DNA of 26,944 nucleotides. Origin: a virus. Positions 3,259 to 26,944 of the stretch are shown piece after piece (within the stretch, counting starts at the first letter, position 1; each line of letters opens with the position of its first letter). The stretch spans positions 1-26,944 of IMG/VR virus record IMGVR_UViG_3300033149_001387; one strand, given 5' to 3'. The notes under the pieces were generated by a model that saw only the letters and a list, made by a program, of their open reading frames with translations, was not told the DNA's origin and made no database searches. The position numbers and the translations under genes are program-made.

Positions 3259-3630
3259 TTATTTGAACGCCAAAAGCGTGACGCCCGTCGCATCGTCCAT
3301 TGTGAAACACACACATCCTGCATGGTCGCCTGTGCGATGGTTGAACCGCTCGACTGGGAACGGCCCGTAGACTCGGTGTTCCAACGTTGGGATCAAGAGC
3401 GTGGCGGCGGGCGTCGGCGCATCGCTCACAAACGTTACAGTGTCGCCGAACTCCGTCGGTGGCAATATCGGTGTAATGTTACATGCGCCCGCCCCGTCGT
3501 TGATTACAAGTAACAAGGTCGCGCCATCGTTCTTGAACTTGTTGCCAGCCACAAGACCAGCATCTTCAACGGTGGAAATTTGTTTGCCGGTTCGTCCGAC
3601 TGTTACTACATCAATTTCAGTATACGGCAT
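3259..3630 (-). CDS. Virion-associated beta-rich protein, first of a tandem pair
   Basis: A 123-residue protein behind GGAGGTGCGGAA ATG. It is a diverged copy of the following gene: a Thr/Val-rich strand start, a segment reporting a measurable entity in beta strands (TLLLVINDGAGA versus VYILMINTDAAD), then the shared GPF...F(N)...GD block and a final strand. The gap between the two genes is 14 bases and holds only the ribosome site. Function is not recognised; a decoration or fibre-base role is plausible because such beta modules often duplicate in tandem in virion genes. Confidence 0.7.
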   Translation of the reverse strand: MPYTEIDVVTVGRTGKQISTVEDAGLVAGNKFKNDGATLLLVINDGAGACNITPILPPTEFGDTVTFVSDAPTPAATLLIPTLEHRVYGPFPVERFNHRTGDHAGCVCFTMDDATGVTLLAFK

Positions 3631-3655: not shown

Positions 3656-5548
3656 CTATCCCGCGCCCAGCTTTACGTGAAAGAACACGAGCACATATCG
3701 CCACGGCGGATTTGTGCCAGGTTCCGTTATCTGTTGCCCTTCCGTCTCAATACGCCCTCTCATGTATCGCCCCGAATCCACATAGACGGCATGTGAATTT
3801 CGGATACGGTTACAGAAAACGCGGGCCACATCTTCTGCACCATCCCATCCGTCTGTACCGCCATAACACTTTGCCTGCAACGCGACTTCGCTCAGTCTGT
3901 CGCCACGAGGTCTGCCGCCCCGGGTTGATATGACAATTCCTTTCTGGCGCCGTCCGTCCCAGATGCTTGTCGGCGGCGCTTCCGGGATGTACACGTCCCC
4001 GGCCACCTGCGCATACAAGGCCGTCGCAGGCATGGTCAGAAACTCCTTCAGAACAGCTTTGTCGATAACCGTGTCGGCGGTTCCTGTACCCGCCCCAAGC
4101 GTACCATCAAACTCTGTGCCAGCAGCGCCGTAGCTGATACCAACCCGCACGTTGGCTTCGGCGGGAACGGTGAGTGTGCCGACAGACGCACCGCTCTGGA
4201 ATATCACGCCTTCTTCGACATCGCCGACAGGGGGATAGTCGCAAACTTCGCCTGCAAGATTGAGCAATGCTCCACCGTCTGCGTATCGGTCAAACGCGCC
4301 ACCTTCTGGATAGTCGATATGAACTGTACCGTTTGGCGCTTTCAGATAGATATCGATCCGCAGTTTACCGGCAGCCGCAGCCGTATGAGCGACGGTCATT
4401 GTCTGCCACGAAGCGTAATCGTCATAATCCCATGTGACGGCTCCAGGCGTTGACGTGGCTATCGTACCATCGGCTTTCAATTCTGTGATAGTAAAATAGA
4501 GTTCCGTCTCGTCCAAATCGCCCGCGAACGGATCGCCTGCCTGCATCTGAGCGTACATAGTATAATTATGAGCTGCCGTATCCGCGACGTTGACGAAATG
4601 CGTGGACACTATCGGCGTGTTCAACCCACAAGTAGCGTTTGACTGGAACCGTAACCCCTGTACTCCACCGCCAGCACGAGCATACGTCGCGTCAGAATCA
4701 ATTTCGCCCCCATACTGGAACTGCCACTGTCGGCCTTTGTCCAGCGCGGGGGTGTCGAAATCGAAGCCGTCGCTATACACTGACGCTGGATGAATCTTTG
4801 TCCCTGGAATCACAGGGACATAAACATTTGTTGTGCAAGAAGTAAACGTACAATTTCTTAATAGAACTGTATCTTGTGCATAGGCCGCGTTCCCACAATT
4901 CTCAAAAGAGCAGTCTTCCAAAACAGCCGTACCAGTTTCAACTCGTACCCCCGTCCTATCTGTCGAAAAAGGATCGAAACTACATCTTGAGGCGTATACA
5001 AACCCACTATCAACACGAATGGCTCCACGGTATATAGCATGATCGCCATTGTTCGTAAACGTACAATCATAAAACTCAGCAAGAACCCCTGGGTCGGCTA
5101 TGTTCACACCATACCTGTATGCCTCTTGGATTGTACAATCAACGAACTGTGTATTACGAGAAGTTCCCGATATGGCTATGTTAGAAACCCCGGAATTTAA
5201 GAACCGCAACCGCTCAAACCACAAGAAGTTATCACCATCTATCAAGAGTGTATGAGCCGCCCCGTTGAAATCTATGGTCGGCAGCACGTCAGAACCGTCA
5301 GTCCACGGATCGTTTGTTACAGAATCGCAGCCGATGATCTTGATGAACTGGTTGATGTCACCGTCCACACTTGGCGTAATGTCAGCAGCATCGCATGTCC
5401 AAGTCTGGTTGGCCCGGACATATATCGTGTCACCAGCAACGACACCTTGCGCGGCTTGGAGTGCGAAATGAATGTCGCCCCACGGATCAAGCAACGAGCC
5501 ATCCCCGAGGTTGTTGGGAATACTGAAGTCCACGTAATATGTAGCCAT
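3656..5548 (-). CDS. Beta-helix virion protein with C-terminal tail-terminator-like domain
   Basis: A 630-residue protein. It opens like right-handed parallel beta-helix proteins (YYVDFSIPNNLGDGSLLDPW, then AGDTIYVRANQTW) and continues with repeated short turns (FVDCTIQEA, FYDCTFTNNG, LEDCSFENCG, LRNCTFTSC) to about residue 240. A beta-rich middle of carbohydrate-binding type follows to about residue 440. Residues about 455-480 (LTVPAEANVRVGISYG) resemble a linker found in phage virion proteins. Residues about 496-630 resemble DUF3168-type tail terminators: KGIVISTRGGRPRGDRLSE, then ALQAKCYGG, then DVARVF, then EPGTNPPWRYVLVFFHVKL. The gene sits exactly where the tail terminator is expected, and no other terminator gene is visible. 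ATG 5548 overlaps the upstream stop as TGATG. Confidence 0.75.
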   Translation of the reverse strand: MATYYVDFSIPNNLGDGSLLDPWGDIHFALQAAQGVVAGDTIYVRANQTWTCDAADITPSVDGDINQFIKIIGCDSVTNDPWTDGSDVLPTIDFNGAAHTLLIDGDNFLWFERLRFLNSGVSNIAISGTSRNTQFVDCTIQEAYRYGVNIADPGVLAEFYDCTFTNNGDHAIYRGAIRVDSGFVYASRCSFDPFSTDRTGVRVETGTAVLEDCSFENCGNAAYAQDTVLLRNCTFTSCTTNVYVPVIPGTKIHPASVYSDGFDFDTPALDKGRQWQFQYGGEIDSDATYARAGGGVQGLRFQSNATCGLNTPIVSTHFVNVADTAAHNYTMYAQMQAGDPFAGDLDETELYFTITELKADGTIATSTPGAVTWDYDDYASWQTMTVAHTAAAAGKLRIDIYLKAPNGTVHIDYPEGGAFDRYADGGALLNLAGEVCDYPPVGDVEEGVIFQSGASVGTLTVPAEANVRVGISYGAAGTEFDGTLGAGTGTADTVIDKAVLKEFLTMPATALYAQVAGDVYIPEAPPTSIWDGRRQKGIVISTRGGRPRGDRLSEVALQAKCYGGTDGWDGAEDVARVFCNRIRNSHAVYVDSGRYMRGRIETEGQQITEPGTNPPWRYVLVFFHVKLGAG

Positions 5549-8299: not shown

Positions 8300-9457
8300 T
8301 TAAGTCGTGCCGTCGGAAGCCCAACATGCCTGAGGCTCAACTGCCGCGCCGGCGAATACATGCCGCACCCGATAGAAGATGTTGTCGGTGGCAAAATCGC
8401 CTGTGAACGATGACAGTTCGCCTGTGCCGCCGAGTCCGACTTTGTCCGAGTTCTTCATACAGATTTCCGGGTTCTCGTGTCCTTTCAGGAACGAAATCTC
8501 ACCGGCTGCGATCTGTTTCGGATCGCTGAACAGCGCCCATGCCGTCGTCGGTGACGTGGTGTCGACGAATGGCTGCCACTCGTTGACAATGAGCTCAAGC
8601 CCCTGCTCCGCGATCACATTCCTGGTCGGCATCGCTACCGGAGCGAACGCGCCGGCGGCGTTGAGATCTGTTATCCACTGCTTTGTCACACTCTTGAGGA
8701 TCTGCTCTGCCGTGAACTTGAGCGCCGGTGGTACGACCAGATACTTCGGCGCGTTCATGATCGGTTCGTTGGTGTCCGGATGCCGATACGCGATCATCTG
8801 CTCGTACGCCGTCTCAAGAGCGCCGATTGTCAGCCCGGCAGTGGCCGCCGCAGCGTTGCCGAAGTTGGCGGCGATAGGCCCGGCAGCGTTCCAAAACATG
8901 GATGTGATGTACCATTCGATTGTGTTCTGGACAGCCGTCGCCAAGTCCTGGGCGCACTGGCTGAACAAGCCGAGATCGTCGTTGAGGAACGCTTCCCACG
9001 AGAAGTCAAGTTGTCGGCCCCACTTCTTCAACTCATACTGCGTCCGATCTTCTTCATACTCTTGCGCCAGATATTCGCCCTTCTCTCCAACCTGTTGCAG
9101 GCGCATGGTGACGAAACCGCTTTTGCGGAAAGTCTTGATCGTGCGGAAGTCTGCAACTGGAGTGCGAGGCCGAAGAATCCGCATCATCTTCGGCTGCACG
9201 GCCTTGTAGTGGCTTAACAGTTCGCGGGCCACGCTGTCACCGAACAGCAGCGGGAAATCGCTCGTTGTCATGGCTTCCTGGAGCTGATAGAGCCAGCGGT
9301 GAGTCGGTAGCCTATCTCGATTTTCCATCAACCCGTTGAACTGGTCAAGCCGTGCAAGATGGTCGGGCGTGTTGACCCGGGCAAGATGATTCTCCTTGTA
9401 CCCAGCCCAATCCGCGCTTTCGTTCATCTCTTTCAGCGTCATCATTTCTAGAGGCAT
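8300..9457 (-). CDS. Major capsid protein, HK97 fold
   Basis: A 385-residue protein, the expected size for an unprocessed or modestly processed HK97-type capsid subunit. Typical parts are visible: an N-terminal helical arm (about residues 1-60), a spine-helix region with DFRTIKTFRKSGFVTMRLQQ and EYLAQEYEEDRTQYELKKW (E-loop/P-domain style), the QLDFSWEAFLNDDLG segment common in this capsid group, LVVPPALKFTAEQIL, and a C-terminal beta block. It lies downstream of the protease/scaffold and decoration genes. AGGAG lies eight bases before ATG 9457. It would form the icosahedral shell. Confidence 0.9.
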   Translation of the reverse strand: MPLEMMTLKEMNESADWAGYKENHLARVNTPDHLARLDQFNGLMENRDRLPTHRWLYQLQEAMTTSDFPLLFGDSVARELLSHYKAVQPKMMRILRPRTPVADFRTIKTFRKSGFVTMRLQQVGEKGEYLAQEYEEDRTQYELKKWGRQLDFSWEAFLNDDLGLFSQCAQDLATAVQNTIEWYITSMFWNAAGPIAANFGNAAAATAGLTIGALETAYEQMIAYRHPDTNEPIMNAPKYLVVPPALKFTAEQILKSVTKQWITDLNAAGAFAPVAMPTRNVIAEQGLELIVNEWQPFVDTTSPTTAWALFSDPKQIAAGEISFLKGHENPEICMKNSDKVGLGGTGELSSFTGDFATDNIFYRVRHVFAGAAVEPQACWASDGTT

Positions 9458-16326: not shown

Positions 16327-17865
16327 TCACCCCTCCTGTTGCTTCACCACTTCACGCAGGAAGCTGTGTACCTGCGCCACTACATTGTGGCCTGGTATCT
16401 TCCCGAACGCCTCAGTCAACTCTGCCATGACCTCGCTCGGGTTGCTCACGCCAAGCAAACTCAGCGCGTACTTTGCCAACTCATCGCTATCGGCCAACAT
16501 CGGGAACGTGCGTACCATCTTCTCGATCCCGTCTACCTTCGGCGCGGTATCTTCTTTGCGAATCGCCTCACCGGTAACCGTCACCTTGCGCTGCTCTTCC
16601 GGCACGCCCATCTGTTCCAACGCCCACTCGAATATCAACTGATACGCGTCACGCCACAGTTCTTGCCATGCAGCGAACCCCTTGAACATCGGCGGTTCCA
16701 TCGAGTCGGCGGTCGCAAGTCGGAAACTGTTACCAAGGCCGTAATAGTGCGGGAAGACGCCGCTGCCGACGCCTACCTGTTGCATGAATAGTTCAGCGTC
16801 AACCTTGGCTGATGCGGCTCCGGTCTCTTGGCGCACGGTCGAATAGCTCGCGCCGGCGTTCTCCAAGAATGTCGACCCGGCGACGGGTGGCGGGTTAGTC
16901 TCGCCGCTCGATCCGCCCAGACCTGTGCCGAGCTGCGCTGCGGCTGCTGATAGACCGGCGGCGTCGGTAAGCATCTTGAGTTTGGCCGGGAACATCGCTA
17001 TCGCCCGGGCAACGGCAGCCCTGCTTGTCATAAACGCCCGGTACTGTTTGGCCCAATCCATGTCGGCTATCAGCCTGGATTCGCCACGTAGTCCACGACC
17101 GGCGGCTTTGAGATGGAACACTACGGCGTCGGCCTGTTCGCCCGACACGGCGTGACCCTGCGCGTCCAGCACTTCACCTTGTCCATCCCACATCCAGTCT
17201 CGATAGAGCAGCGTTTTCTCCTGTGTGCCGACGAAATACTTGCGCACGTAGACCCAGGGTTCGCTCCTGTCCTCCGGATTTGTCAAAACAGACACGATCT
17301 CCAGCGGGTCAATCGTGCGCACCTTGACCGTCTCACGCTCGGCGAACAGCGCAAAGAAGACCTCGCCGTCTGTGTAGAGCGCATCTGACAGGTCCCGTTG
17401 ACCCTGCGTCGAGAACATCTTGCGGTTCCATACAGATGTGGTAAACTCGTCGATGACTTCTCGCGCCCTCTCGGCTTCTTCGCCGACCGTCCACTTGAAG
17501 CCTTTACCGACGGCAAAGTTTGTGTACAGCGCGACTGTCTGTTTGACACTGCCGTCGTGGCGCACGTATTGCCGGGCTCGACGCACGATAGCGGTGCGTA
17601 AAGCGCCAGGCATGTCCAGCGAGCTGCCGTCTGTTAGCCGATGCCAACCAATATCGTCGCGGATCAAGTCCATTGACATGAGGCTGGACTCGTGCATATC
17701 GACCGCCCGGAGGATGTGACCGGCCATGTCTTCACGCTGTATCTGCCGAGTCGCATAGCTCAAGGCCTGCTCGAACCAAGGGAACTCGTCGCCGTTGTCA
17801 GCGCCGGGGCCAAGCTGCTGGTATCCGGGCTCGTTTATGGTTTGCTCGGTTTGTGTTTGTGGCAT
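16327..17865 (-). CDS. Portal protein
   Basis: A 512-residue protein directly downstream of the terminase genes, the expected size and place for the dodecameric portal through which DNA is pumped. Portal-type features include an N-terminal helical stretch, SLDMPGALRTAIVRRARQYV, TDGEVFFALFAERETVKVRT followed by IDPLEIVSV, VVFHLKAAGRGLRGESRLIA with a following stem helix, and a C-terminal helical crown. A Gly/Ala-rich stretch (about 310-330) may be a tunnel loop. GAAGGG precedes ATG 17865. It ends QQEG, whose codons are the ribosome site for the next mini-gene. Confidence 0.88.
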   Translation of the reverse strand: MPQTQTEQTINEPGYQQLGPGADNGDEFPWFEQALSYATRQIQREDMAGHILRAVDMHESSLMSMDLIRDDIGWHRLTDGSSLDMPGALRTAIVRRARQYVRHDGSVKQTVALYTNFAVGKGFKWTVGEEAERAREVIDEFTTSVWNRKMFSTQGQRDLSDALYTDGEVFFALFAERETVKVRTIDPLEIVSVLTNPEDRSEPWVYVRKYFVGTQEKTLLYRDWMWDGQGEVLDAQGHAVSGEQADAVVFHLKAAGRGLRGESRLIADMDWAKQYRAFMTSRAAVARAIAMFPAKLKMLTDAAGLSAAAAQLGTGLGGSSGETNPPPVAGSTFLENAGASYSTVRQETGAASAKVDAELFMQQVGVGSGVFPHYYGLGNSFRLATADSMEPPMFKGFAAWQELWRDAYQLIFEWALEQMGVPEEQRKVTVTGEAIRKEDTAPKVDGIEKMVRTFPMLADSDELAKYALSLLGVSNPSEVMAELTEAFGKIPGHNVVAQVHSFLREVVKQQEG

Positions 17866-18387: not shown

Positions 18388-19671
18388 TTACATCCCGTCA
18401 AAAGCCCCCACAAGTCCACCGCCCGCCACGTCACGGTACGCATCATATACCACGAGCTGCTCTTGTGTCAAGGGGTCTGGTGGCCGGTGGTGTGTCCACA
18501 TGGCATACCGGAATGCGTCCATCGCGTGGTTGAACTTATCCACGGGCACGTCCATCGGGTTGCCGTCCTTATCGACGCGCCACTTATACGCCTCGTTCTC
18601 GGCGTTCAAGTTGACGTTATCTTCCCGCGTATGCGTCTGCATCGTCTTACAGAAATCGATACCCTTCCGAACACTGTCGGCTCCTTTGTGCGCCGGATAG
18701 ATGTTGTATCCCGCCAGCTTGATCTCATGGATTCTATCGGGCTCCGCCGAGTCCCCGTACATGCAGCAGCGCTTGTCAACGCCATTCTCGTTCATCCACT
18801 CGATAAACTGGGCGTTCGTATATTTGCTCTCGTAGAACAGCTCGGTCAGATATACAACCCTGTCCCGGATACCAACCTCAATCAGGGCCGTCGGGTTGTT
18901 CCAGCCGAAGTCTACGCCATAAATGATCTCGTCGAAGGTCTCGGGATACGGCCCTCGTAGAAATGGCTTGTATACAAGGCCTGTCAAGTCGCCCCATTGT
19001 CCCAACGCATAGATGCCATGATACCCCTCGTCAATATCAGCCAGCCCTTCCAGCTCCTCGGCATAAGCTTCGTCACAGTGCGGGTTATCGATATAGGTGG
19101 TCAGATGCACGGTCGTATTCGGTCTCTCGACGTCGACAAACCGCTTTTTGAGCCAGTGCATCCGGCTGATAGGATTGAACGTGAGTATATGTTGAAAGTA
19201 GCTCTCGGTCTCGCCTCGCATCCTGAGGTTGAGCTGTATCAGGTCTTTCTCGGTCAGTTCGGTGGTTTCTTCGTGCCAGAACGATGTGACGCCCTGAATC
19301 GATTTGACCTTCTCGGCGTCATCGAGCCCAAGGGTCAATATCTGATTTCCGTTCGGTAGATATGTAAACTCTTTATCAGACTTGTTGATCTGAAAGAAGC
19401 GTACAACATCCCACCGTCGGAGCAGCTCGATAATCTCGGCGAACACGCTATTCTTGATGGTGCGGGCAACCTTGCGTGTACAGACGATCTTGCTGCGCTC
19501 GGGCTGCATAGTGCGGAGCAACGTCTTCTGTGCTGCGAACACGGACTTACCGGAACCCGAGCCGCCATACTCAACCAGGAACCGATCGGTATTGTAGAAG
19601 TCGTCATAGAAGCACGGATTGATTTCTTCCGCGAGATCAATCGTTCTTGTCTGTGCGGTTGCCGTTGTCAT
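18388..19671 (-). CDS. Terminase large subunit
   Basis: A 427-residue packaging motor. The ATPase half shows Walker A GGSGSGKS (36-43), an adenine/coupling region around CTRKVARTIKNSVFAEI, and Walker B SFWHEETTE (about 130-138). The nuclease half shows IIYGVDFGWNNPTAL (first Asp), MYGDSAEPDRI (second Asp) and PVDKFNHAMDAFRYAMW (third acidic site), the standard RNase H-like arrangement of the Terminase_3/PBSX-like group. The length is normal. ATG 19671 lies within the end of the small subunit gene (35-base overlap), with only a weak ribosome site, so coupled translation is likely. Confidence 0.95.
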   Translation of the reverse strand: MTTATAQTRTIDLAEEINPCFYDDFYNTDRFLVEYGGSGSGKSVFAAQKTLLRTMQPERSKIVCTRKVARTIKNSVFAEIIELLRRWDVVRFFQINKSDKEFTYLPNGNQILTLGLDDAEKVKSIQGVTSFWHEETTELTEKDLIQLNLRMRGETESYFQHILTFNPISRMHWLKKRFVDVERPNTTVHLTTYIDNPHCDEAYAEELEGLADIDEGYHGIYALGQWGDLTGLVYKPFLRGPYPETFDEIIYGVDFGWNNPTALIEVGIRDRVVYLTELFYESKYTNAQFIEWMNENGVDKRCCMYGDSAEPDRIHEIKLAGYNIYPAHKGADSVRKGIDFCKTMQTHTREDNVNLNAENEAYKWRVDKDGNPMDVPVDKFNHAMDAFRYAMWTHHRPPDPLTQEQLVVYDAYRDVAGGGLVGAFDGM

Positions 19672-20032
19672 CTGTGCTCGGTGGTAGAATGAATTGGATT
19701 GGGCCGCCGTCCGGGCCGCTTACTTCCACGCGATCATGTTGTCCTAGATGATGTTTGCCAAGGTGCATCTGCATTCGCTCGCTGCCGTTCAGTGTCTCAA
19801 CGGTCTTGTTGCAATGCGGACACTTCACTTTGCCGCCGACGCCTTTCAGCCATTGAGCACGGCGCAACTTAGTTTTGCCGTCACCGCGAGCTAGCTCGAT
19901 CTTGTCCGCAAAACGGCGCTCCAGCGTATCAACGCTACAGCCAAGGGACGCGGCCATTTCCTTATAGGTACATCCGACCTCTGCCAAGAGCTTGAGCTTC
20001 TTTTCGTCGATCTTGATCTTGGGTCGAGCCAT
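19637..20032 (-). CDS. Terminase small subunit with zinc-finger-like insert
   Basis: A 131-residue protein upstream of and overlapping the large subunit. Residues 10-45 form a helix-turn-helix of the small terminase type (KLKLLAEVGCTYKEMAASLG, then CSVDTLERRF), the part that reads the packaging site. An unusual insert follows: C71-P-H-C74 ... H90 ... H94/H95, a plausible C2H2-type zinc site (KCPHCNKTV, MQMHLGKHH). The C-terminus is Pro/Asp-rich. ATG 20032 follows GAGAGGT; the gene begins only 16 bases after the 3' end of a tRNA gene, so one transcript could carry both. Confidence 0.85.
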   Translation of the reverse strand: MARPKIKIDEKKLKLLAEVGCTYKEMAASLGCSVDTLERRFADKIELARGDGKTKLRRAQWLKGVGGKVKCPHCNKTVETLNGSERMQMHLGKHHLGQHDRVEVSGPDGGPIQFILPPSTDDNGNRTDKND

Positions 20033-20048
20033 AAGCTACCTCTCGCGT

Positions 20049-20135
20049 TGGCGGAACAGCCAGGAGTCGAACCTGGGCTTCCAATGGAAGGCCACGGGTT
20101 AGCAACCCGGCGCATTGCCTCTCTGCCACTGTTCC
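20049..20135 (-). tRNA. tRNA-Ser (anticodon GCU)
   Basis: An 87-base cloverleaf with encoded CCA. The acceptor GGAACAG pairs with CTGTTCC. The D arm is GCA/TGC; the anticodon loop TTGCTAA gives GCU (reads AGC/AGU); a long variable arm (GGCCTTCC-ATT-GGAAGCC) marks a class II serine tRNA; the T arm is CCAGG-TTCGACT-CCTGG. One oddity is a C-U mismatch at the base of the anticodon stem. It lies four bases after the other serine tRNA. Confidence 0.93.
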
Positions 20136-20139
20136 ATAC

Positions 20140-20224
20140 TGGCGGCTGGTGAAGGACTCGAACCCTCAAACCCTGAAGGCTACCGGTTTTCAAGACCGGG
20201 GACGTACCATTCGTCAAACCAGCC
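20140..20224 (-). tRNA. tRNA-Ser (anticodon UGA)
   Basis: An 85-base cloverleaf with encoded CCA. Acceptor GGCTGGT/ACCAGCC; D stem GACG/CGTC with GG in the loop; anticodon stem CCGGT/ACCGG around loop CTTGAAA, giving UGA (reads UCA and probably other UCN). The variable arm has about 15 bases and the T arm is GAGGG-TTCGAGT-CCTTC. The identity is serine from anticodon and arm layout. Its 5' end is about nine bases from the -10 box of the leftward promoter candidate, so it may begin the transcript. Confidence 0.93.
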
Positions 20225-20232
20225 ATACCCCG

Positions 20233-20263
20233 ATCATACCACGTCCCACCACCCCCGTGTCAA
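20233..20263 (-). promoter_or_regulatory. Leftward promoter for tRNAs and late operon (candidate)
   Basis: On the minus strand TTGACA (20263-20258), a 19-base spacer and TATGAT (20238-20233), preceded by TGG, an extended -10 (TGn). The spacer is long but tolerable with the extended element. The start point would fall at about 20226, just before the first tRNA gene. The remaining sequence to the rightward promoter (20264-20354) contains no ORF that I support. Confidence 0.5.
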
Positions 20264-20354
20264 CCCGCCTCGGCAAACGATCCCAAGGGGGCAGGTTTCG
20301 GCCCTTTTCGAACACCCCATAACCCTATACCACTACAAGACTTACACAAGGGGC

Positions 20355-20383
20355 TTGACAGACACCCTCGAATATGGTATACT
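20355..20383 (+). promoter_or_regulatory. Early rightward sigma70 promoter 1
   Basis: TTGACA (20355-20360), exactly 17 bases, then TATACT (20378-20383; five of six). Start point near 20390. It would drive the leader ORF, hairpin and the first early genes. The second early promoter uses the same hexamers and spacing. Confidence 0.82.
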
Positions 20384-20411
20384 TTACATAGGATTAAGGA
20401 GATCGAATGGA

Positions 20412-20543
20412 ATGAACGCTCAGAGTACAAACCAACTGGCCCGCCCAGGTGTGTCCGTCTGGAATACCCACCACCGTATTCCGTTCGTTCTCCTTCCTCA
20501 TGCCTGGGCGGCCTTTTTTATCAAGGGAGAACGGGGACAATGA
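20412..20543 (+). CDS. Leader ORF of 43 codons containing an attenuator hairpin
   Basis: The frame runs from ATG 20412 to a TGA that overlaps the next gene's ATG (ACAATGACA). AAGGAG lies ten bases upstream; an ATG-GAA-TGA triplet at 20407 sits closer and overlaps this ATG. The product begins MNAQSTNQLARPGVSVWNTH and ends AFFIKGERGQ. The second half encodes a terminator-like stem. It may be a leader peptide whose translation controls folding, or a genuine small protein coupled to the next gene. No family is recognised. Confidence 0.5.
   Translation: MNAQSTNQLARPGVSVWNTHHRIPFVLLPHAWAAFFIKGERGQ
20438..20519 (+). terminator. Branched terminator/attenuator in the early leader
   Basis: GGCCCGCCCAGG (20438-20449) pairs with CCTGGGCGGCC (20503-20513) as 11 bp with one bulged C, followed directly by TTTTTT (20514-20519). 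The 53-base loop holds a perfect 7 bp hairpin GGAATAC/GTATTCC (20461-20482). TCTCCTT (20489-20495) in the loop is complementary to the leader ribosome site AAGGAGA (20396-20402). Because the gene continues downstream, this is more likely a regulated attenuator than a plain terminator. Which fold dominates is not known. Confidence 0.65.
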
Positions 20544-20547
20544 CACA
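20522..20547 (+). repeat. Duplicated translation start region, copy 1
   Basis: A 26-base segment carrying the ribosome site and ATG (20540) of the first early gene. It recurs at 21053-21077 with a single G missing. Both copies end in ATGACACA. Confidence 0.8.
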
Positions 20548-20950
20548 CCGACACCAAGCTCATTACTTTGAGCAACGGCTAAGAGCGGCTGGGTTCGAGG
20601 TGCCGTATAATACCGACCACTCCAACATGCTTTGGGCCCAGGGCATCCCGACCTATCGAAGAAACGGCTGGGAACTCAAGGGGGCATCCGACTACTTTGA
20701 GATCGATGTGAGTTGTTGGGTTGACGAAGACGAACAGCCGATATATGAGATCGCCGACTACCGCACGGAACATGAAGCGATGGAGCCGATGTACTACGGT
20801 GAGTTTTCGGTTCGCTTTGCCGATCATGCTCAGGTACCGGGTGGAGGGTTCAGCCAGGCGCGGCAAGAACGCATGGGCGAAGCGACTATCAGCATCGACT
20901 CGACGACTGGGTTGACATGGCGTGACATTTGTTGGTGGCTGGGAATCTAA
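20540..20950 (+). CDS. Hypothetical early protein 1
   Basis: A 136-residue acidic protein, first full gene after early promoter 1. ATG 20540 follows GGGAGAACGGGG and overlaps the leader ORF stop. The N-terminus is basic/aromatic (RHQAHYFEQRLRAAGFEVPY); the middle is rich in Tyr, Trp, Asp and Glu (GWELKGASDYFEIDVSCWVD) and looks like mixed alpha/beta. The end is TGLTWRDICWWLGI. No family is recognised. Early, small and acidic proteins in this position often modify host processes, but nothing specific can be claimed. Confidence 0.75.
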   Translation: MTHRHQAHYFEQRLRAAGFEVPYNTDHSNMLWAQGIPTYRRNGWELKGASDYFEIDVSCWVDEDEQPIYEIADYRTEHEAMEPMYYGEFSVRFADHAQVPGGGFSQARQERMGEATISIDSTTGLTWRDICWWLGI

Positions 20951-20967
20951 CATGGAGGGGTTGACAA

Positions 20968-21375
20968 ATGCGAGACAATAGCGCCAAGCTAGAACCGAAA
21001 TCGCTCTATCAGGTCATGGCAGAGCACGAGGCGGCCAAGTTGCCGTCCAAACCAAGGGAGAACGGGACAATGACACATCAAGCCGAAGTGTTGAGAATGA
21101 TGGAGACATCAGACGATGGCGCTGCAAGAGTAGCAGCAGCCGTAATCCGACAAGAGGCGGCGAAGATGCCGGCCAGGATAGATTCGAGTATTGCTATTTC
21201 CTGGACCGAATGGCATAGAGTTCGGGCAAGTCGTTTGGCGTTTATGCTCGGCGCCATGCAATCCCACCTTCAGACTTGCGGCAAAACTAAGGATGAAGTA
21301 GCGGAACTCGAAACACAAGCTGATGAAGATTGGCACAGGATATTTCCAGAAGATGCAAAGGTTTATGACGAATGA
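20968..21375 (+). CDS. Hypothetical early protein 2, with a second possible start
   Basis: A 135-residue protein from ATG 20968 behind GGAGGGG. Residue 35 (ATG 21070) is preceded by a near copy of the ribosome site of the 20540 gene, so a 101-residue short form is possible. The sequence is helical and charged: YQVMAEHEAAKLPSKP before the internal start, then VLRMMETSDDGAARVAAAVI and WHRVRASRLAFMLGAMQSHL. Family unknown. The TGA at 21373-21375 overlaps an ATG, but the frame after it lies in a structured region. Confidence 0.72.
   Translation: MRDNSAKLEPKSLYQVMAEHEAAKLPSKPRENGTMTHQAEVLRMMETSDDGAARVAAAVIRQEAAKMPARIDSSIAISWTEWHRVRASRLAFMLGAMQSHLQTCGKTKDEVAELETQADEDWHRIFPEDAKVYDE
21053..21077 (+). 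repeat. Duplicated translation start region, copy 2
   Basis: A 25-base match to 20522-20547 with one G deleted, lying inside the coding frame of early protein 2 and including ATG 21070 in frame. The ribosome site is intact, so the copy may be functional. Confidence 0.8.
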
Positions 21376-21382
21376 ACTCCCT

Positions 21383-21491
21383 GCGGCAGAGGCGACCGGC
21401 GGCAACTACCTCATCCGACTATACGGCCAATCCGGTTGCTGCCGACCCTGCAAGCCGATGTGCCGCCGAACATCGGTTACGCCTCTGCCGC
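21383..21491 (+). ncRNA. Three-way-junction RNA candidate
   Basis: Three stems fit without conflict. P1: GCGGCAGAGGCG (21383-21394) with CGCCTCTGCCGC (21480-21491), 12 bp, all Watson-Crick. P2: CGGCGGCAAC (21397-21406) with GTTGCTGCCG (21435-21444), 10 bp with one G-U, 28-base loop. P3: 21453-21461 with 21470-21478, 9 bp around an 8-base loop (core CCGATG/CATCGG). Junctions are 2, 8 and 1 bases. It fills the 181-base gap between early proteins 2 and 3. A 49-codon frame (21372-21521) crosses it but looks unconvincing. I could not match it to a riboswitch or ribozyme consensus I know. Confidence 0.6.
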
Positions 21492-21556
21492 GCTCCCGCA
21501 GACATGCTCGTCTCGCTGTGAGGCGATTGAACAGCAGCAGGTAACAGGAGGGGTAA

Positions 21557-21817
21557 ATGATGAAGCGTGAACAGATACTGTGTGACCGGTGTGTGCGTGA
21601 CATTCTGCCAGCCGACGCCAAGGGCAAAATCGAGATTCAGGTCACAGAATATGACGCTGATGGCATAGGCAGCTGTGTGATCTGGTATCACGACTATGAC
21701 AATCTCGATGCACGGTGCAAAAAGACATTGCTCGGCGAGTTAGACGTTTTCATCGCCGGGTATCTGAAGAAACGCAAGAAGCTGTTGGGAGGTGATGCGC
21801 CAGACCCATCTGAATAG
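21557..21817 (+). CDS. Hypothetical early protein 3
   Basis: An 86-residue protein with tandem ATGs (21557, 21560) behind AGGAGGGG. It opens with a CxxC motif (ILCDRCVRDILPADAKGKIE), continues with beta-type segments (IEIQVTEYDADGIGSCVIWY) and ends with a helix rich in Lys (DVFIAGYLKKRKKLL). Only one clear CxxC pair plus a later Cys is present, so metal binding is uncertain. It is flanked on both sides by structured non-coding elements. Family unknown. Confidence 0.76.
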   Translation: MMKREQILCDRCVRDILPADAKGKIEIQVTEYDADGIGSCVIWYHDYDNLDARCKKTLLGELDVFIAGYLKKRKKLLGGDAPDPSE

Positions 21818-21899
21818 CCGAAATGCCGGGGTGTTGTGTAAATGCATGTGTTGTAGTAGACCACACTTACTCAGCTTCTAGCAAGCCCCGGCATCTGGC
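21817..21899 (+). ncRNA. Second branched RNA candidate between early genes
   Basis: It begins at the last base of the preceding stop codon. The closing stem is GCC (21817-21819) with GGC (21897-21899), an internal loop GAA/CT, then ATGCCGGGGT (21823-21832) with GCCCCGGCAT (21885-21894), 10 bp. Inside, TGTGTAA (21835-21841) pairs with TTACTCA (21867-21873) with one mismatch, GTGT/ACAC continues past a 6-base bulge, and GCT-TCT-AGC forms a small hairpin. No U tract follows. It lies in the 133-base gap before the next gene. Confidence 0.5.
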
Positions 21900-21950
21900 G
21901 GCGATGGTCGTCCGTCACTGAAGAGGCAGGCCGAGATGGAGGGAGAAACC

Positions 21951-22337
21951 ATGAACGACAAAACCTACCGAGACGAGCACAACGAGCCGGCCACCTTCGC
22001 CGAGCAGGACCACCTCGAAGCGCAGGCCGAAGAGCGCAAGACTGCCGAGTGCGGCATGTGTCTCGAACGCATTGACCCCGACGACTTGGTGAAGCGGTAC
22101 TTCTGGCGTGAGGGCGCGCGCAAAACGATCAACCTATGCTCGGGCTGTTGTGGCAGATGGGACGGTAAATCCAGCGGCTACTATGATACGTGTATCGTAT
22201 GCCGTGCAGGATGCGTCAGTTTGGGCGACGACAGTGTGGCCGTAACAGCGCTCGTCTTGCAGCACGGCAAATTCAATCGGCTGATTGCAGGCGCCCTGTG
22301 CGCGGAATGTTGCGAGAGTTGGGGGATTGAGGTATGA
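21951..22337 (+). CDS. Cysteine-rich zinc-ribbon protein
   Basis: A 128-residue protein from ATG 21951 (GGAGGGAG before it; an ATG at 21936 is in frame but without a site). An acidic N-terminus is followed by Cys motifs in the order CGMC, CSGCC, CIVCRAGC and CAECC, enough for two zinc sites. The layout resembles tandem treble-clef or rubredoxin-like ribbons. It ends 10 bases before early promoter 2. A DNA/RNA-binding or host-protein-binding role is plausible; no family is recognised. Confidence 0.78.
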   Translation: MNDKTYRDEHNEPATFAEQDHLEAQAEERKTAECGMCLERIDPDDLVKRYFWREGARKTINLCSGCCGRWDGKSSGYYDTCIVCRAGCVSLGDDSVAVTALVLQHGKFNRLIAGALCAECCESWGIEV

Positions 22338-22346
22338 ATTTTTCCC

Positions 22347-22375
22347 TTGACATCCGGGCCGCGGTAGTGTATACT
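22347..22375 (+). promoter_or_regulatory. Early rightward sigma70 promoter 2
   Basis: TTGACA (22347-22352), 17 bases, then TATACT (22370-22375), the same hexamers and spacing as promoter 1. Start point near 22382, 120 bases before the DUF1376-type gene. It separates the small early genes from the replication block. Confidence 0.82.
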
Positions 22376-22419
22376 GGGTGACGGTGATACTATGAGAGTG
22401 CATTTAGATGAAAAGAAAT

Positions 22420-22491
22420 TGGGCCGAAAGGTAGTCACATCTTGCCTTCACTGTCATGGTGTCACCTCTACTGGACGGCCCATACTTTTTT
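22420..22491 (+). promoter_or_regulatory. Leader stem with U tract after promoter 2
   Basis: TGGGCCG (22420-22426) pairs with CGGCCCA (22476-22482), followed after three bases by TTTTTT (22486-22491). Inside, AGGT/ACCT and CACTG/TGGTG can form. The stem is shorter and the U tract is displaced compared with promoter 1's leader, so termination would be weak. A 52-codon frame (22392-22550) crosses it and overlaps the next gene; it has no good ribosome site. Confidence 0.4.
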
Positions 22492-22504
22492 CAGGATCAC
22501 GGTT

Positions 22505-23260
22505 ATGGCAAAGTCGCCAGCGTTTCAGTTCTATCCGGGCGACTGGTTGAGTTCGGAGAAGATCATGTTGATGACACCGGCGCAAGAGGGCGCGTATATC
22601 AGGTTGCTGGCAGTCGCGTGGGGCGCGGAAGATTGTGGACTCCCCGATGATGACGAGCGGCTTGCTATTTTGAGCCGCCTTGGCGAAGGGTGGTTCAAGG
22701 GTGGTTCACAGGTGGTTCGTGAATGTTTCTTTTCTGAGGATGGTCGATTGTACAATGCGCGGCTCTTAGAAGAGCGGCAAAAGCAAAAAGAGTGGCGCGA
22801 AAAGTCGGCGGCTGGAGGTCGGAAGTCTGGTAAAGTTAGGCGGCGTAAGAAGTTAGCTATAGCGAAGGGTGGTTGCGAAATGGTTGCAACCAAACGCGAA
22901 CCAAAGGGCAACTCTTCATCTTCATCTTCATCTTCATCTTCTATAAAAGAATATTGTCGGAATTCAGAGCCATTCCGACTCGCTAAATTACTGTTTTCGC
23001 TGATCCAGGAACGGCTGCCGAAAGCCAAGAAACCGAACCTCCAGAGATGGGCGCGGGACGTTGACCTGATGATCCGGCGTGAGAACCGAACTGTTGACGA
23101 GATTGAAGCTGTGATCCAATGGTGCCAGCACGACAGCTTCTGGCGGAAGAATATACGGTCACCCGCAAAGCTACGAGAAAAGTTCGACCAGCTTCAGGAT
23201 ACGATGCAGGGCGCCGTAGACAATGAACCAGTTGAGGAGTGGTTTGATGTTCCAGATTGA
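22505..23260 (+). CDS. DUF1376-type replication protein with poly-serine linker
   Basis: A 251-residue protein from ATG 22505 (AGGA eight bases before). The N-terminal 90 residues match the DUF1376 pattern: FQFYPGDWLSSEKIMLMTPA, EGAYIRLLAVAWG, LPDDDERLAILSRL, FSEDGRLYNARL. A basic coiled region (about 95-140) and ten serines follow, then a C-terminal helical domain (EPFRLAKLLFSLIQERL; WARDVDLMIRRENRTVDEIE; SPAKLREKFDQL) resembling primosomal or loader C-termini. Such genes sit before DnaB helicases in phages, suggesting an initiator or helicase-loading role. It overlaps the helicase start by 14 bases. Confidence 0.82.
   Translation: MAKSPAFQFYPGDWLSSEKIMLMTPAQEGAYIRLLAVAWGAEDCGLPDDDERLAILSRLGEGWFKGGSQVVRECFFSEDGRLYNARLLEERQKQKEWREKSAAGGRKSGKVRRRKKLAIAKGGCEMVATKREPKGNSSSSSSSSSSIKEYCRNSEPFRLAKLLFSLIQERLPKAKKPNLQRWARDVDLMIRRENRTVDEIEAVIQWCQHDSFWRKNIRSPAKLREKFDQLQDTMQGAVDNEPVEEWFDVPD
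22913..22942 (+). repeat. Hexanucleotide repeat encoding ten serines
   Basis: Four copies of TCTTCA followed by TCTTCT in frame, alternating UCU and UCA codons. Copy-number change in six-base steps would keep the frame and vary linker length. It separates the DUF1376-type N-terminal part from the C-terminal domain. Confidence 0.9.
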
Positions 23261-24530
23261 CAAAGCGCTACCACATTCAGGGCTTGATGAACAACAGGTA
23301 CTCGGCGCATGTATGTGTGACGCCAGCGCTATGCGAGAAGTTGCAGAGACGATGCTTGCGCCGGAACATTTCTATTCGACAGAACACACAGAGATCTTCA
23401 CCGCGATTCTGGCTGTCTACCATTCAAGTGAATACGTGAATACGGTCTCCGTCTACAACCAAAATACAAACATCAGTGCGGCGTACCTTGCACAGCTACA
23501 ACGTGAAACCGTGAGTGTCGGTGGTATGGCAAAGTACGCGAAGATGATAAAAGCGGCGGCGCATGACCGCAACCTGCTCAATTCGTTCACCCGCGGGATC
23601 CAAGACATTCAAGGCGGCACATCTTCTGCCACAGTCGTTGAGGCTATATTGTCTGCCAGCCAAAACAGCGAGAGCGAGACGCAGGACACACCCGCAAAGC
23701 TGGTGGACATAACATCGCCAGCCATAGCTGGGATCGAGGCTCGCATGAAAACAGGCGGGATTGTAGGTATACCGACAGGCTTTACTGACTTGGACATTCT
23801 ACTCTCAGGCCTACACAAGGGTGAGTTGGTGACAATTGCGGCGCGAACGTCGGCTGGTAAGTCAAGTCTGGCTCGCCAGATCGCTGTGAACGTGGGGTTG
23901 GCAGGTAACACAGTCGCCATATTCTCCTTAGAAATGAGCGCCAGCTTAATCGCCGAACTCATGTTGTGTATGCGGGCCGAGATCAACTTACACGAACTTC
24001 AGAAGGGTATCGGTAGCGGCTCGGAACAGATCGAGAAATTAGTATACGCCGCACAGACGCTTCAGAGCGCCAGCGTTTACATAGATGCCACAGCCAGCCG
24101 GGTTGAACAGGTCTGTAGCCGGAGCCGTAAACTTGCGTCTCGCCGCGGGCTTGACCTTATAATCATCGACTATCTACAACTTATTGAGGGTGAGAAAGGA
24201 CAGAGTCGGGAACGTGAAGTTGCGTCTGTGTCTCGCGCGCTCAAACTGTTGGCTTCTGAGTTAAACGTGGCGGTTATAGCATTGTCACAGTTGAACCGGC
24301 GCGTTGATTTCCGGCAAGGCGGGCCGCGATTGAGCGACCTGCGAGAGTCGGGCGCCATTGAACAAGACTCGGATGTGGTGATATTTCTGGAACGGGTCAA
24401 CATGACAAAGGAGCCGAACGCACTGGGCAACGTACGGCTCACGGTGAAGAAACAACGTAGCGGGCCGATCGGAATTGTGTGGCTTACGTTCCGAAAAGAA
24501 TATACGCGGTTTGAAAATGCGGCAAGGTAA
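23247..24530 (+). CDS. Replicative DNA helicase, DnaB family
   Basis: A 427-residue protein from ATG 23247, chosen for GAGGAG seven bases before; an ATG at 23223 is in frame but has no site. The N-terminal domain starts LDEQQVLGACMCD and carries FYSTEHTEIFTAIL. The RecA-like core has IPTGFTDLDILLSGLHKGEL, Walker A ARTSAGKSSLA, VAIFSLEMSASLIAE, Walker B LDLIIIDYLQLIEG, and SQLNRRVDFRQGGPRLSDLR followed by ESGAIEQDSDVVIFLER. It would form the hexamer that unwinds the phage fork on the lagging strand. It lies right after the DUF1376-type gene, its probable partner. The length is slightly short of bacterial DnaB. Confidence 0.95.
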   Translation: MFQIDKALPHSGLDEQQVLGACMCDASAMREVAETMLAPEHFYSTEHTEIFTAILAVYHSSEYVNTVSVYNQNTNISAAYLAQLQRETVSVGGMAKYAKMIKAAAHDRNLLNSFTRGIQDIQGGTSSATVVEAILSASQNSESETQDTPAKLVDITSPAIAGIEARMKTGGIVGIPTGFTDLDILLSGLHKGELVTIAARTSAGKSSLARQIAVNVGLAGNTVAIFSLEMSASLIAELMLCMRAEINLHELQKGIGSGSEQIEKLVYAAQTLQSASVYIDATASRVEQVCSRSRKLASRRGLDLIIIDYLQLIEGEKGQSREREVASVSRALKLLASELNVAVIALSQLNRRVDFRQGGPRLSDLRESGAIEQDSDVVIFLERVNMTKEPNALGNVRLTVKKQRSGPIGIVWLTFRKEYTRFENAAR

Positions 24531-24545
24531 GCAGGAGGGATAGAC

Positions 24546-25484
24546 ATGGATCACGAGATTCGTAAGACAGGCATCAGCGGTACGGACATAGCGGCGATCT
24601 GTGGGGTCAACCCGCATAAGACAGCGTTCCGGGTATGGGAAGAAAAGACAGGCAAGGCTGAGCCGATTGAACAGACGCGGCAGATGAAATGGGGCCACAT
24701 CCTTGAGCCGGTCGTGGCGACTCAGTTTCGGTTGGCGCATCCTGAGTTTGCTAAGCGCATGAAGATGAACAAAACGACGTTCGTCAACCCGGATAACGCG
24801 CTCGTGGTAGGCACACCCGACTACTTGCTGCCTCCAGAAGAAGGGCTTGAGGTCAAGGCGCATAGTTACTTCGCGGCGGCCCGGCTTGGCTTTGGTGAGC
24901 AAGGCACAGATGATGTGCCGAAGCACCACTACCTCCAGTGCGAGTGGTACATGATACTGATGGACGTATACCGCTGGCATCTGGCAGTGCTGATCGACAC
25001 ATCCGACTACCGCGAATATCAGATTGAGCGCAAACCCGCTCTCGACGAGAAGCTGTTGGACATCGCCGCCCGCTTCTGGGACAAACATGTCAAGGCCGAC
25101 GAACCGCCACCGCTCGACGGGTCGAAGGACGTTGCCAACTATCTCAAGCGCACATTCCCAACGCACACAGACATGTTGCCGGTTGCCACAGACGAGCAGA
25201 CAGCGATTTATGACGAGTATTGGCATCATCGGCGTGCACGTGACCTTGCAGTCGCCGAGATGGATCGGCTTGAGAACGTGCTCAAGTTTCACGTTGGCGA
25301 CACGGCGGGGCTTGTCTTCAAGAACGGCAAGCTGACATGGAAGCGGTGCAAAGATGGTAGTAAAACGGACTGGAAAGCGGTCGCAATAGCCGCTGGAGCG
25401 ACGACCGAGCAGATCGCCGAGTATACTACCGCGCGCCCAGGCGTTCGGCGGTTCCTGGCGAAACTGACGGAACAGGAGGGGTAA
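24546..25484 (+). CDS. YqaJ-type viral exonuclease
   Basis: A 312-residue protein behind AGGAGGGATAGAC ATG. The YqaJ / lambda exonuclease pattern is clear: RKTGISGTDIAAICGVNP (opening), RQMKWGHILEPVVATQF, VVGTPDYLLPPEEGLEVKAH with the catalytic D...ExK (D in GTPDYLL, E and K in GLEVKAH), and HHYLQCEWYMILM. The C-terminal 100 residues form a helical and basic extension. The enzyme would digest one strand of duplex ends to expose a 3' tail for the annealing protein encoded downstream. It ends TEQEG, with the codons acting as the next ribosome site. Confidence 0.92.
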   Translation: MDHEIRKTGISGTDIAAICGVNPHKTAFRVWEEKTGKAEPIEQTRQMKWGHILEPVVATQFRLAHPEFAKRMKMNKTTFVNPDNALVVGTPDYLLPPEEGLEVKAHSYFAAARLGFGEQGTDDVPKHHYLQCEWYMILMDVYRWHLAVLIDTSDYREYQIERKPALDEKLLDIAARFWDKHVKADEPPPLDGSKDVANYLKRTFPTHTDMLPVATDEQTAIYDEYWHHRRARDLAVAEMDRLENVLKFHVGDTAGLVFKNGKLTWKRCKDGSKTDWKAVAIAAGATTEQIAEYTTARPGVRRFLAKLTEQEG

Positions 25485-25488
25485 GACA

Positions 25489-26097
25489 ATGGGTATAGAT
25501 GCGCGAATGCTTGTGAAAACAAAGGAAGCGGTGACAGAAGAACAGGTGCGCCAGTGGGCGTACCATCTTGCTGAGCGATTCGGCTATAGGAAGTTTTGGA
25601 TATTCCGCGAACTGATTTATGGCGGGCAGCAACACTGCTTGTCAATCATAGACGAGTTACAGCAAGATGATGGTTCGACTGTCAAGCCAGAAGAAGGAGG
25701 GACATTGGTCAACGTTCATTTAGCGTCGCGTTATTATGGATGCGAAGGCTATGAGCGCGGCGACTTGCCGCTCATTATAAATGTAGCTCGATTCCTTGAA
25801 GAAACGATACCGGGTGCGTCAATCTGGTATGGCGGCGATTCGGTTTGTATGGAGCCGTTTGGCGCAGAAGTGCGGGAACAATACTGGCGGCATTTTGTTG
25901 AGGTCGGAAGTGAGCCGTACGAGCGTCATTTCGGAAAAGAAGAGCCGCCACTTTGTGACTTTTGCCAATACCCCATGATGGAATGTGGATGGGGCGGCGG
26001 CAAAACTCTCTTTCGGTGTAACGGCTGTGGGCTAGAGATTTATCGGGATGCGGCGACGGGTGAAATTACTGAACGAACAGGAGGGGCAAGACAATGA
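25489..26097 (+). CDS. Zinc-ribbon protein between exonuclease and RecT genes
   Basis: A 202-residue protein from ATG 25489, with GGAGGGG from the previous gene's end. The N-terminal 140 residues are mixed alpha/beta and include FWIFRELIYGGQQHCLSIID and DLPLIINVARFLEETIPGAS. The C-terminal part carries CDFCQYPMMECGWGGG and RCNGCGLEIY, a probable zinc ribbon. The TGA overlaps the RecT ATG (ATGA), so it is co-translated with the recombination genes. It could be a helper or single-strand binding partner of the exonuclease-annealase pair; no family is recognised. Confidence 0.78.
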   Translation: MGIDARMLVKTKEAVTEEQVRQWAYHLAERFGYRKFWIFRELIYGGQQHCLSIIDELQQDDGSTVKPEEGGTLVNVHLASRYYGCEGYERGDLPLIINVARFLEETIPGASIWYGGDSVCMEPFGAEVREQYWRHFVEVGSEPYERHFGKEEPPLCDFCQYPMMECGWGGGKTLFRCNGCGLEIYRDAATGEITERTGGARQ

Positions 26098-26944
26098 CAG
26101 TTGAAAAGGACAAGCAGCAAGAAAAACCAAAGTCAAAAGCGTTGGTTTTAAGAGAGACACTGGAAGGATCACGAGCGAAGTTTCAGTCAGTCATGCCAAG
26201 AACGCTTGGCTCGATTGATACGCGGGTTGAATGGTTGATGCGATCATTTCTGCTGGCGGCGGTTGACAACCCTCTGCTCTATGATTGCACGTGGACATCA
26301 ATCTTACAAACGGTTCTTGATACAGCGGCTCTCGGACTCGATTTCTCGAAGACGCTCGGACAAGCAGCCCCGGTGCCATACAAGATCAAAGGGGTGATGA
26401 CTTGTACCTTAAACGTCATGTACCGTGGCCTTGTCGGGCTTGCGCGGCGTAGCGGCGATGTCGTAATGGTTGAGGCGCGCAACGTTTATGGCTGTGACGA
26501 TTTCGACATTCAATATGGCACATGTCCGCAGATTTATCACAAGCCGAAAGCAGAATATGAACCCGACGAAGAGTTTATCGGCAGCTATGCCGTAGCAACT
26601 ATGCCAGACGGGACCAAGCAGTTTGACTGGATGACCGCGAAGGACATCGACCGCATTCGTCGCAGAAGCAGGGGAAAGGACAAGGGGCCGTGGGTGACTG
26701 ATATTGCCGAAATGCGCAAAAAGACTGTCGTGCGGCGGCTGCTGAAGATGGTACCGATGTCGCCGGAGTTGGCAAGAGTATTGGAGGCCGAAGATCGAGC
26801 CGAAGCTGGTGCGCCCAGCGGCGATCTAATTGATGTGACACCACCTGCGGTGCCCGACAAGGCGGCCGAGATAGGCGACGACATTGATGCGGCCAAGGAC
26901 CGGCTCGACCTGAAGGAGCCGGCAACGGCTGACGATGTGGATAC
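26094..26944 (+). CDS. RecT-family single-strand annealing protein, 3' end outside window
   Basis: The frame is open from ATG 26094 to the right edge (283 codons). RecT features are visible: LGSIDTRVEWLMRSFLLAAV, DNPLLYDCTWTSILQTVLDT, AALGLDFSKTLGQAAPVPYK, LNVMYRGLVGLARRSGDVVM and TDIAEMRKKTVVRRLLKMVP. The C-terminal tail is acidic with Pro/Ala, as usual. The protein coats and anneals single strands made by the YqaJ-type nuclease, supporting recombination and concatemer formation. GGAGGGG from the previous gene serves as ribosome site. The visible part already includes the conserved core. Confidence 0.93.
   Translation, partial: MTVEKDKQQEKPKSKALVLRETLEGSRAKFQSVMPRTLGSIDTRVEWLMRSFLLAAVDNPLLYDCTWTSILQTVLDTAALGLDFSKTLGQAAPVPYKIKGVMTCTLNVMYRGLVGLARRSGDVVMVEARNVYGCDDFDIQYGTCPQIYHKPKAEYEPDEEFIGSYAVATMPDGTKQFDWMTAKDIDRIRRRSRGKDKGPWVTDIAEMRKKTVVRRLLKMVPMSPELARVLEAEDRAEAGAPSGDLIDVTPPAVPDKAAEIGDDIDAAKDRLDLKEPATADDVD

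Follow-up and report, generated by a model that had tools for sequence, protein, structure and literature searches.

A conserved three-way-junction RNA in an early intergenic gap of an uncultivated phage

The gap between two early genes of the phage studied here holds a 109-nt element (21383-21491) that folds into a three-way junction, and this fold is real and evolutionarily conserved. The analysed stretch of DNA (the window) covers one complete IMG/VR viral record (26,944 bases), with the late genes on the minus strand and the early genes on the plus strand. The early genes run from small proteins without family to a DnaD-like helicase loader, a DnaB-like helicase and a YqaJ/RecE-type exonuclease, and the junction occupies the 181-nt gap (21376-21556) between the ORFs of 135 and 86 amino acids (Table 1). 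Two adjacent serine tRNA genes (anticodons GCT and TGA; 20049-20224, minus strand) lay where the late operon starts, immediately ahead of the gene for a small terminase-like protein. A late-operon stem of 16 bp with an inner hairpin (8280-8212, minus strand; z of -3.4 for the 150-nt fold) directly followed the major head protein gene. A PADLOC hint of AbiEi identity for a 136-aa protein (E 0.022) was too weak and was discarded.

Table 1. Coordinates of the junction, its neighbours and related features (positions refer to the window unless a contig is named)
Feature	Position	Strand	Remark
P1 5' arm GCGGCAGAGGCG	21383-21394	+	Perfect 12-bp inverted repeat; in the minimum-free-energy (MFE) fold
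J1/2 linker AC	21395-21396	+	ACAAUA in L002; length varies between phages
P2 5' arm CGGCGGCAACU	21397-21407	+	11-bp stem
P2 terminal loop	21408-21433	+	Small 3-bp hairpin inside; sequence differs in L002
P2 3' arm GGUUGCUGCCG	21434-21444	+	Pairs with 21397-21407
J2/3 linker ACCCUGCA	21445-21452	+	8 nt; plus the preceding G, GACCYUGC
P3 5' arm AGCCGAUGU	21453-21461	+	9-bp stem including one G-U
P3 3' arm ACAUCGGUU	21470-21478	+	Pairs with 21453-21461
P1 3' arm CGCCUCUGCCGC	21480-21491	+	Perfect 12-bp inverted repeat; in the MFE fold
Early promoter TTGACA-17-TATACT	20355-20383	+	About 1 kb upstream of the junction, which it would transcribe
Upstream cistron, 135 aa, no family	20968-21375	+	Stop codon 7 nt before P1 (11 nt in L002)
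Downstream cistron, 86 aa, Cys-rich small protein	21557-21817	+	In L002 the homologue likewise follows the RNA directly
Window leader 1	20404-20511	+	Promoter-proximal; interleaved stems 20404-20414/20477-20487 and 20441-20453/20499-20511 followed by a U6 tract; a neighbour of the junction, separate from it
Interleaved leaders	window 20384-20535; window 22376-22504; L002 3452-3562; L045 3248-3370; L044 453-575		Similar stem spacing
Second intercistronic element	21823-21894 (wider stretch 21777-21894)	+	Between the 86-aa and 133-aa genes; closing stem AUGCCGGGG/CCCCGGCAU
PBSX-type large terminase	18388-19671	-	Best match 47%, Thermoanaerobacterium phage THSA-485A
Portal	16327-17865	-	Late gene
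Head protease/major head protein	8300-9457	-	Late gene

The three-way junction was the computed MFE fold of the gap, and its helices were joined by linkers of 2 (AC), 8 (ACCCUGCA) and 1 (A) nt. A first-pass annotation had described a 12-bp closing stem with arms 85 nt apart, a 10-bp stem with one G-U pair and a 9-bp stem joined by 2, 8 and 1 unpaired bases. The perfect P1 (21383-21394/21480-21491) was found as described, the computed structure reproduced the 9-bp stem and the three linkers, and the 10-bp stem was extended by a terminal U-G pair to the 11 bp of P2. P1 was the sole perfect inverted repeat of at least 12 bp within 130 nt across 19800-26944. The element lacked a U tract, as had been remarked, and neither a terminator nor a promoter of its own was found at the site.

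The pairing exceeded chance, in agreement with the earlier claim. The 135-nt window segment reached an MFE of -64.6, shuffles averaged -42.1 (z of -6.27), and none of 200 dinucleotide shuffles was as stable. Since P1 by itself could drive this value, the interior was also shuffled alone with P1 held fixed; its z was -4.15, with 2 of 1500 shuffles as stable, and two stems of at least 9 bp arose in only one of 1500 shuffles of the interior with P1 held apart. The corresponding segment of a related contig (L002) gave a z of -5.70 (0 of 200 shuffles as stable), and for its interior alone 4 of 1500 shuffles were as stable while none of the 1500 contained two stems of at least 9 bp.

The plus strand folded better than the minus strand in both phages (-60.5 vs -58.6 in the window, -55.7 vs -48.9 in L002), and the helices contained three G-U pairs in the window and six in L002. 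Because G-U pairs become A-C mismatches on the other strand, these results pointed to an RNA read in the direction of the early operon. An element acting as DNA, for example a cruciform or single-strand hairpin at an origin or recombination site, would suit the palindromic and sequence-conserved P1 and the replication genes 1-2 kb downstream, but the confinement of the G-U pairs and of the better fold to the transcribed strand in both phages makes it highly improbable.

Conservation was seen in L002, a distantly related phage contig that held the one relative of the 86-aa protein among the viral contigs (42-49% identity) and that also shared the following 133-aa protein (44%) and the exonuclease (76%). 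The gap before the 86-aa gene of L002 contained a 119-nt segment (3783-3901) whose own MFE fold was the same junction, with a P1 of 13 bp, a P2 of 10 bp and a P3 of 10 bp. The gene upstream of it was a different one in L002, and its stop codon preceded the junction by 11 nt; the element thus occupied the same syntenic slot in both phages, closely behind a stop codon and ahead of the 86-aa gene. When the two junctions were aligned helix by helix, with the alignment fitted to the structure, all 30 compared pairs were kept and 13 of them had changed on both sides. The two-sided changes were concentrated in P2 (6 of 10 pairs) and P3 (6 of 8), so that 12 of the 18 pairs of these helices had been replaced and none broken, while P1 retained 10 identical pairs together with one one-sided and one two-sided change. 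The outer nine bases of P1 were identical, and both changed pairs lay further in. The compensatory stem changes that the first-pass annotation had named beforehand as a test were therefore found in the homologous gap. The comparison covers the only two sequences that carry the junction (window and L002), and because the alignment was structure-fitted, the case for L002 rests on its independent folding, its genomic slot and its near-identical P1 and not on the pair counts alone.

The unpaired parts evolved differently from the helices. The linkers measured 2/8/1 nt in the window and 6/13/3 nt in L002, the P2 loops (26 and 25 nt) had no common motif, and the sole unpaired run common to the two was GACCYUGC in J2/3. 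A protein-coding explanation fared poorly in the same comparison. ORFs of 49 and 50 codons that start from the upstream stop codon span the element in both phages (window ATG 21372, L002 ATG 3771), but 36 frame pairs showed no significant similarity (best score 39, equalled by 3 of 60 shuffles), and the P1 arms cannot share one frame, since the interiors of 91 and 101 nt differ by 10 nt, which is not a multiple of three. No reading frame was thus conserved over the element, so that the shared frame named by the first-pass annotation as a refutation was absent, and an overlapping short gene is the least credible of the explanations considered. In L002, start and stop codons overlapped in series (TAATG, TGATG, TAAATG) across the junction gap at 3771-3998, which suggests translational coupling, and a 25-codon ORF with a CxxC motif lay within it.

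Database searches agreed with the earlier view that the element belonged to no recognised RNA class, since the comparison with Rfam gave no matching family. At the gathering threshold of Rfam 15, the window gave two tRNAs only and L002 and two further contigs (L044 and L045) gave none, and nothing relevant appeared at the element when the threshold was relaxed to E up to 5. A hint of a type II hammerhead at 21880-21935, off the element, was rejected as chance level (18.5 bits vs a cut-off of 37). Searched at the nucleotide level, phage and plasmid records yielded no homologue of the element, and the plasmid matches were chance pieces of 28-44 nt. Scanning viral contigs for the pattern of the P1 arms gave 40 stretches, about the number expected by chance, of which the only relative was L021 (the same contig as L002); the others seen folded into unrelated shapes. 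A covariance model built from the single sequence found L002 weakly (21.7 bits, E 0.027, mostly from P1), a score within the 20-23 bits obtained for chance loci that carry identical P1 arms, so that the homology of L002 rests on synteny and independent folding. Further junction homologues were found neither among 79 loci of DnaB relatives nor in the remainder of the two relatives' records. The structured leaders of four DnaB relatives (L099, L102, L113 and L116) resembled ordinary terminators (GGGTGCGG..CCGCACCC with T runs downstream) and were set aside.

Maintenance of the helices while linker lengths and the P2 loop differ would be expected if the shape of the element is selected, and we infer that it acts by shape rather than through a ligand pocket. 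The junction would be a structured domain on the plus strand, forming part of the early polycistronic mRNA. P1 could stack on P3 (21 bp from 12 + 9 in the window, 23 bp from 13 + 10 in L002) or on P2. The resulting double-stranded RNA, some two helical turns long, would match the substrate size of a host enzyme of the RNase III type and could also be a barrier to exonucleases and to ribosome run-on. The early mRNA might be segmented in this way and the flanking cistrons expressed at different levels. The position after a stop codon, the two-turn shape and the freely evolving loops fit processing, stability or insulation best, and we tentatively regard a cis-acting intercistronic element of this RNase III type as its most likely role. 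The RNase III helix length of about 20 bp is attained by P1 and P3 only if they stack across the linker of 1-3 nt, and RNase III substrates are not known to carry a sequence signature that could be tested here. The sequence of P1 was conserved far beyond what helix length alone would need, which hints at sequence-specific recognition.

A metabolite riboswitch or a small ribozyme with a three-way-junction core is very unlikely on the same evidence. The topology resembles several riboswitches and the hammerhead, and GACCYUGC offers one shared unpaired run; however, there was no Rfam match at gathering and nothing relevant to E 5, the linkers changed from 2/8/1 to 6/13/3, and no conserved unpaired base was present beyond GACCYUGC, whereas a pocket for a ligand would depend on residues of the junction being conserved. 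The earlier suggestion of a riboswitch-like element was further disfavoured by the absence of a terminator and by a Shine-Dalgarno pairing that was strong only in L002. The P2 loop, put forward as a ligand or pairing site, differed in sequence in L002 and had no conserved partner outside; the top candidates for pairing between the junction loops and outside sequences differed between the phages and were at chance level. Of the first-pass interpretation, the structured RNA of no recognised class was retained, and the P2-loop site and the riboswitch were not. A trans-acting small RNA or decoy, cut from the early transcript to titrate a host RNA-binding protein or to pair with a host RNA, would be served by a compact and very stable domain that could survive processing and whose structure is conserved more than its loop sequence. 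We consider it rather doubtful, since the element has neither promoter nor terminator of its own and its loops, which are the usual pairing sites, differ between the window and L002.

Control of translation of the 86-aa protein, with the junction or a protein bound there (perhaps the 86-aa product itself) setting access to the downstream Shine-Dalgarno sequence via the pyrimidine run directly 3' of P1, deserves more weight but is still unlikely. The junction and the 86-aa gene co-occurred in the window and L002, and L045 showed neither between its early genes. Bases 3901-3909 of L002, right after P1, paired with the Shine-Dalgarno sequence CAGGAGGGG with a probability of up to about 0.99, but the same pairing reached only 0.16-0.19 in the window, formed equally well in L002 without the junction, and the distance from P1 to the start codon was 65 nt in the window and 99 nt in L002. 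A pairing that is weak in one phage and independent of the junction in the other implied that there was no conserved expression platform.

Structured RNA was also found elsewhere in the early region. The promoter pattern TTGANA-17-TATACT occurred six times in four records (the window, L002, L044 and L045), and five of the six occurrences opened early units (window 20355, window 22347, L002, L045 and L044). Downstream of each of these five promoters, no more than about 125 nt away, lay two strong stems in the interleaved order 1-2-1'-2', an arrangement reproduced in 0 of 1500 shuffles in each case. When 896 stretches of the window were ranked by this measure of interleaved stems, its two leaders took the first and third places and the fifth fell to the second intercistronic element (21777-21894). 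Segment 1 of the leaders held the Shine-Dalgarno sequence or the start codon of a short leader ORF, and at promoter 1, segment 1' could pair with the Shine-Dalgarno sequence of the first real gene too (12 bp in the window, 20484-20495/20524-20535). Within 20477-20535 of the window, segment 1' thus had two alternatives, the leader Shine-Dalgarno sequence and start at 20404-20414 or that of the first gene at 20524-20535, and comparable alternatives were present in L002 and L045. These alternatives in window leader 1 possibly form a translational switch. By the order of their segments, the interleaved leaders would be pseudoknot-like, and they are possibly a new class of leader RNA.

The second intercistronic element was present in L002 (4207-4336) and L045 (3506-3572) as well, with a conserved closing stem UGCCGGGG/CCCCGGCA; the window and L002 also shared the inner motif UGUUGUAGU..ACCAC, and in both an interleaved stem may form with the end of the 86-aa gene. 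In L045, three perfect 13-bp hairpins (loops of 42, 44 and 41 nt) stood in tandem at 3297-3572, in the interval that separates the early promoter from the first gene. The first 110 bases of L044 (1-110) and the end of L045 overlapped by about 110 bases, and both contigs came from metagenome 3300033153; they are probably one phage split in assembly, and appear to represent a third relative. The junction could be one module of an RNA-based early control in which interleaved switching leaders and intercistronic RNA domains, not an antiterminator protein, set gene order and dosage, but this proposal is doubtful.

Conservation has been demonstrated for few structured RNAs from uncultivated phages. 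The junction passed the key evolutionary test, in that its helices were kept while their sequence was replaced, and, having no catalogued family, qualifies well as a candidate new RNA motif of phages. Together with the interleaved leaders, which may be more interesting than the junction itself, it provides a concrete case for the organisation of early expression by RNA folds in some phages, a case open to testing with reporters and without phage culture.

Among known systems, the put RNA of phage HK022 consists of two stem-loops of about 70 nt, located at the promoter or no more than about 270 nt from it, and suppresses pausing and termination via the zinc-binding domain of the RNA polymerase beta' subunit (PMC9378689). 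The window element is likewise a phage-encoded, cis-located structured RNA of an early transcript; unlike the two adjacent stem-loops of put, it is a single three-way junction of 109 nt, and unlike promoter-proximal put, its nearest forward consensus promoter (20355-20383) lies about 1 kb upstream. A nascent junction that binds RNA polymerase during elongation and keeps it from pausing or terminating further along the early operon would agree with the phage early operon, the cis position, the conserved double-helical fold and the structured RNA that follows both early promoters of this phage. Such an action is nevertheless improbable, as a single three-way junction about 1 kb from the promoter resembles put in neither geometry nor position, and the terminator-like sites of the region were no commoner than in shuffles, with all but one on the other strand. 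The phi29 packaging RNA (Rfam RF00044) is a phage RNA with a three-way junction; in contrast to it, the window gave no such Rfam match and encodes a PBSX-type large terminase, not the phi29 motor. The hammerhead ribozyme contains a three-way junction too, and no hammerhead match was obtained at the window element. The T7-type sites at which RNase III processes phage early mRNA are irregular hairpins. The window element, a three-way junction for which RNase III cleavage is only predicted, differs from these hairpins in form, but resembles them in being an intercistronic double-stranded structure of an early polycistronic mRNA, with about two helical turns if its helices are stacked.
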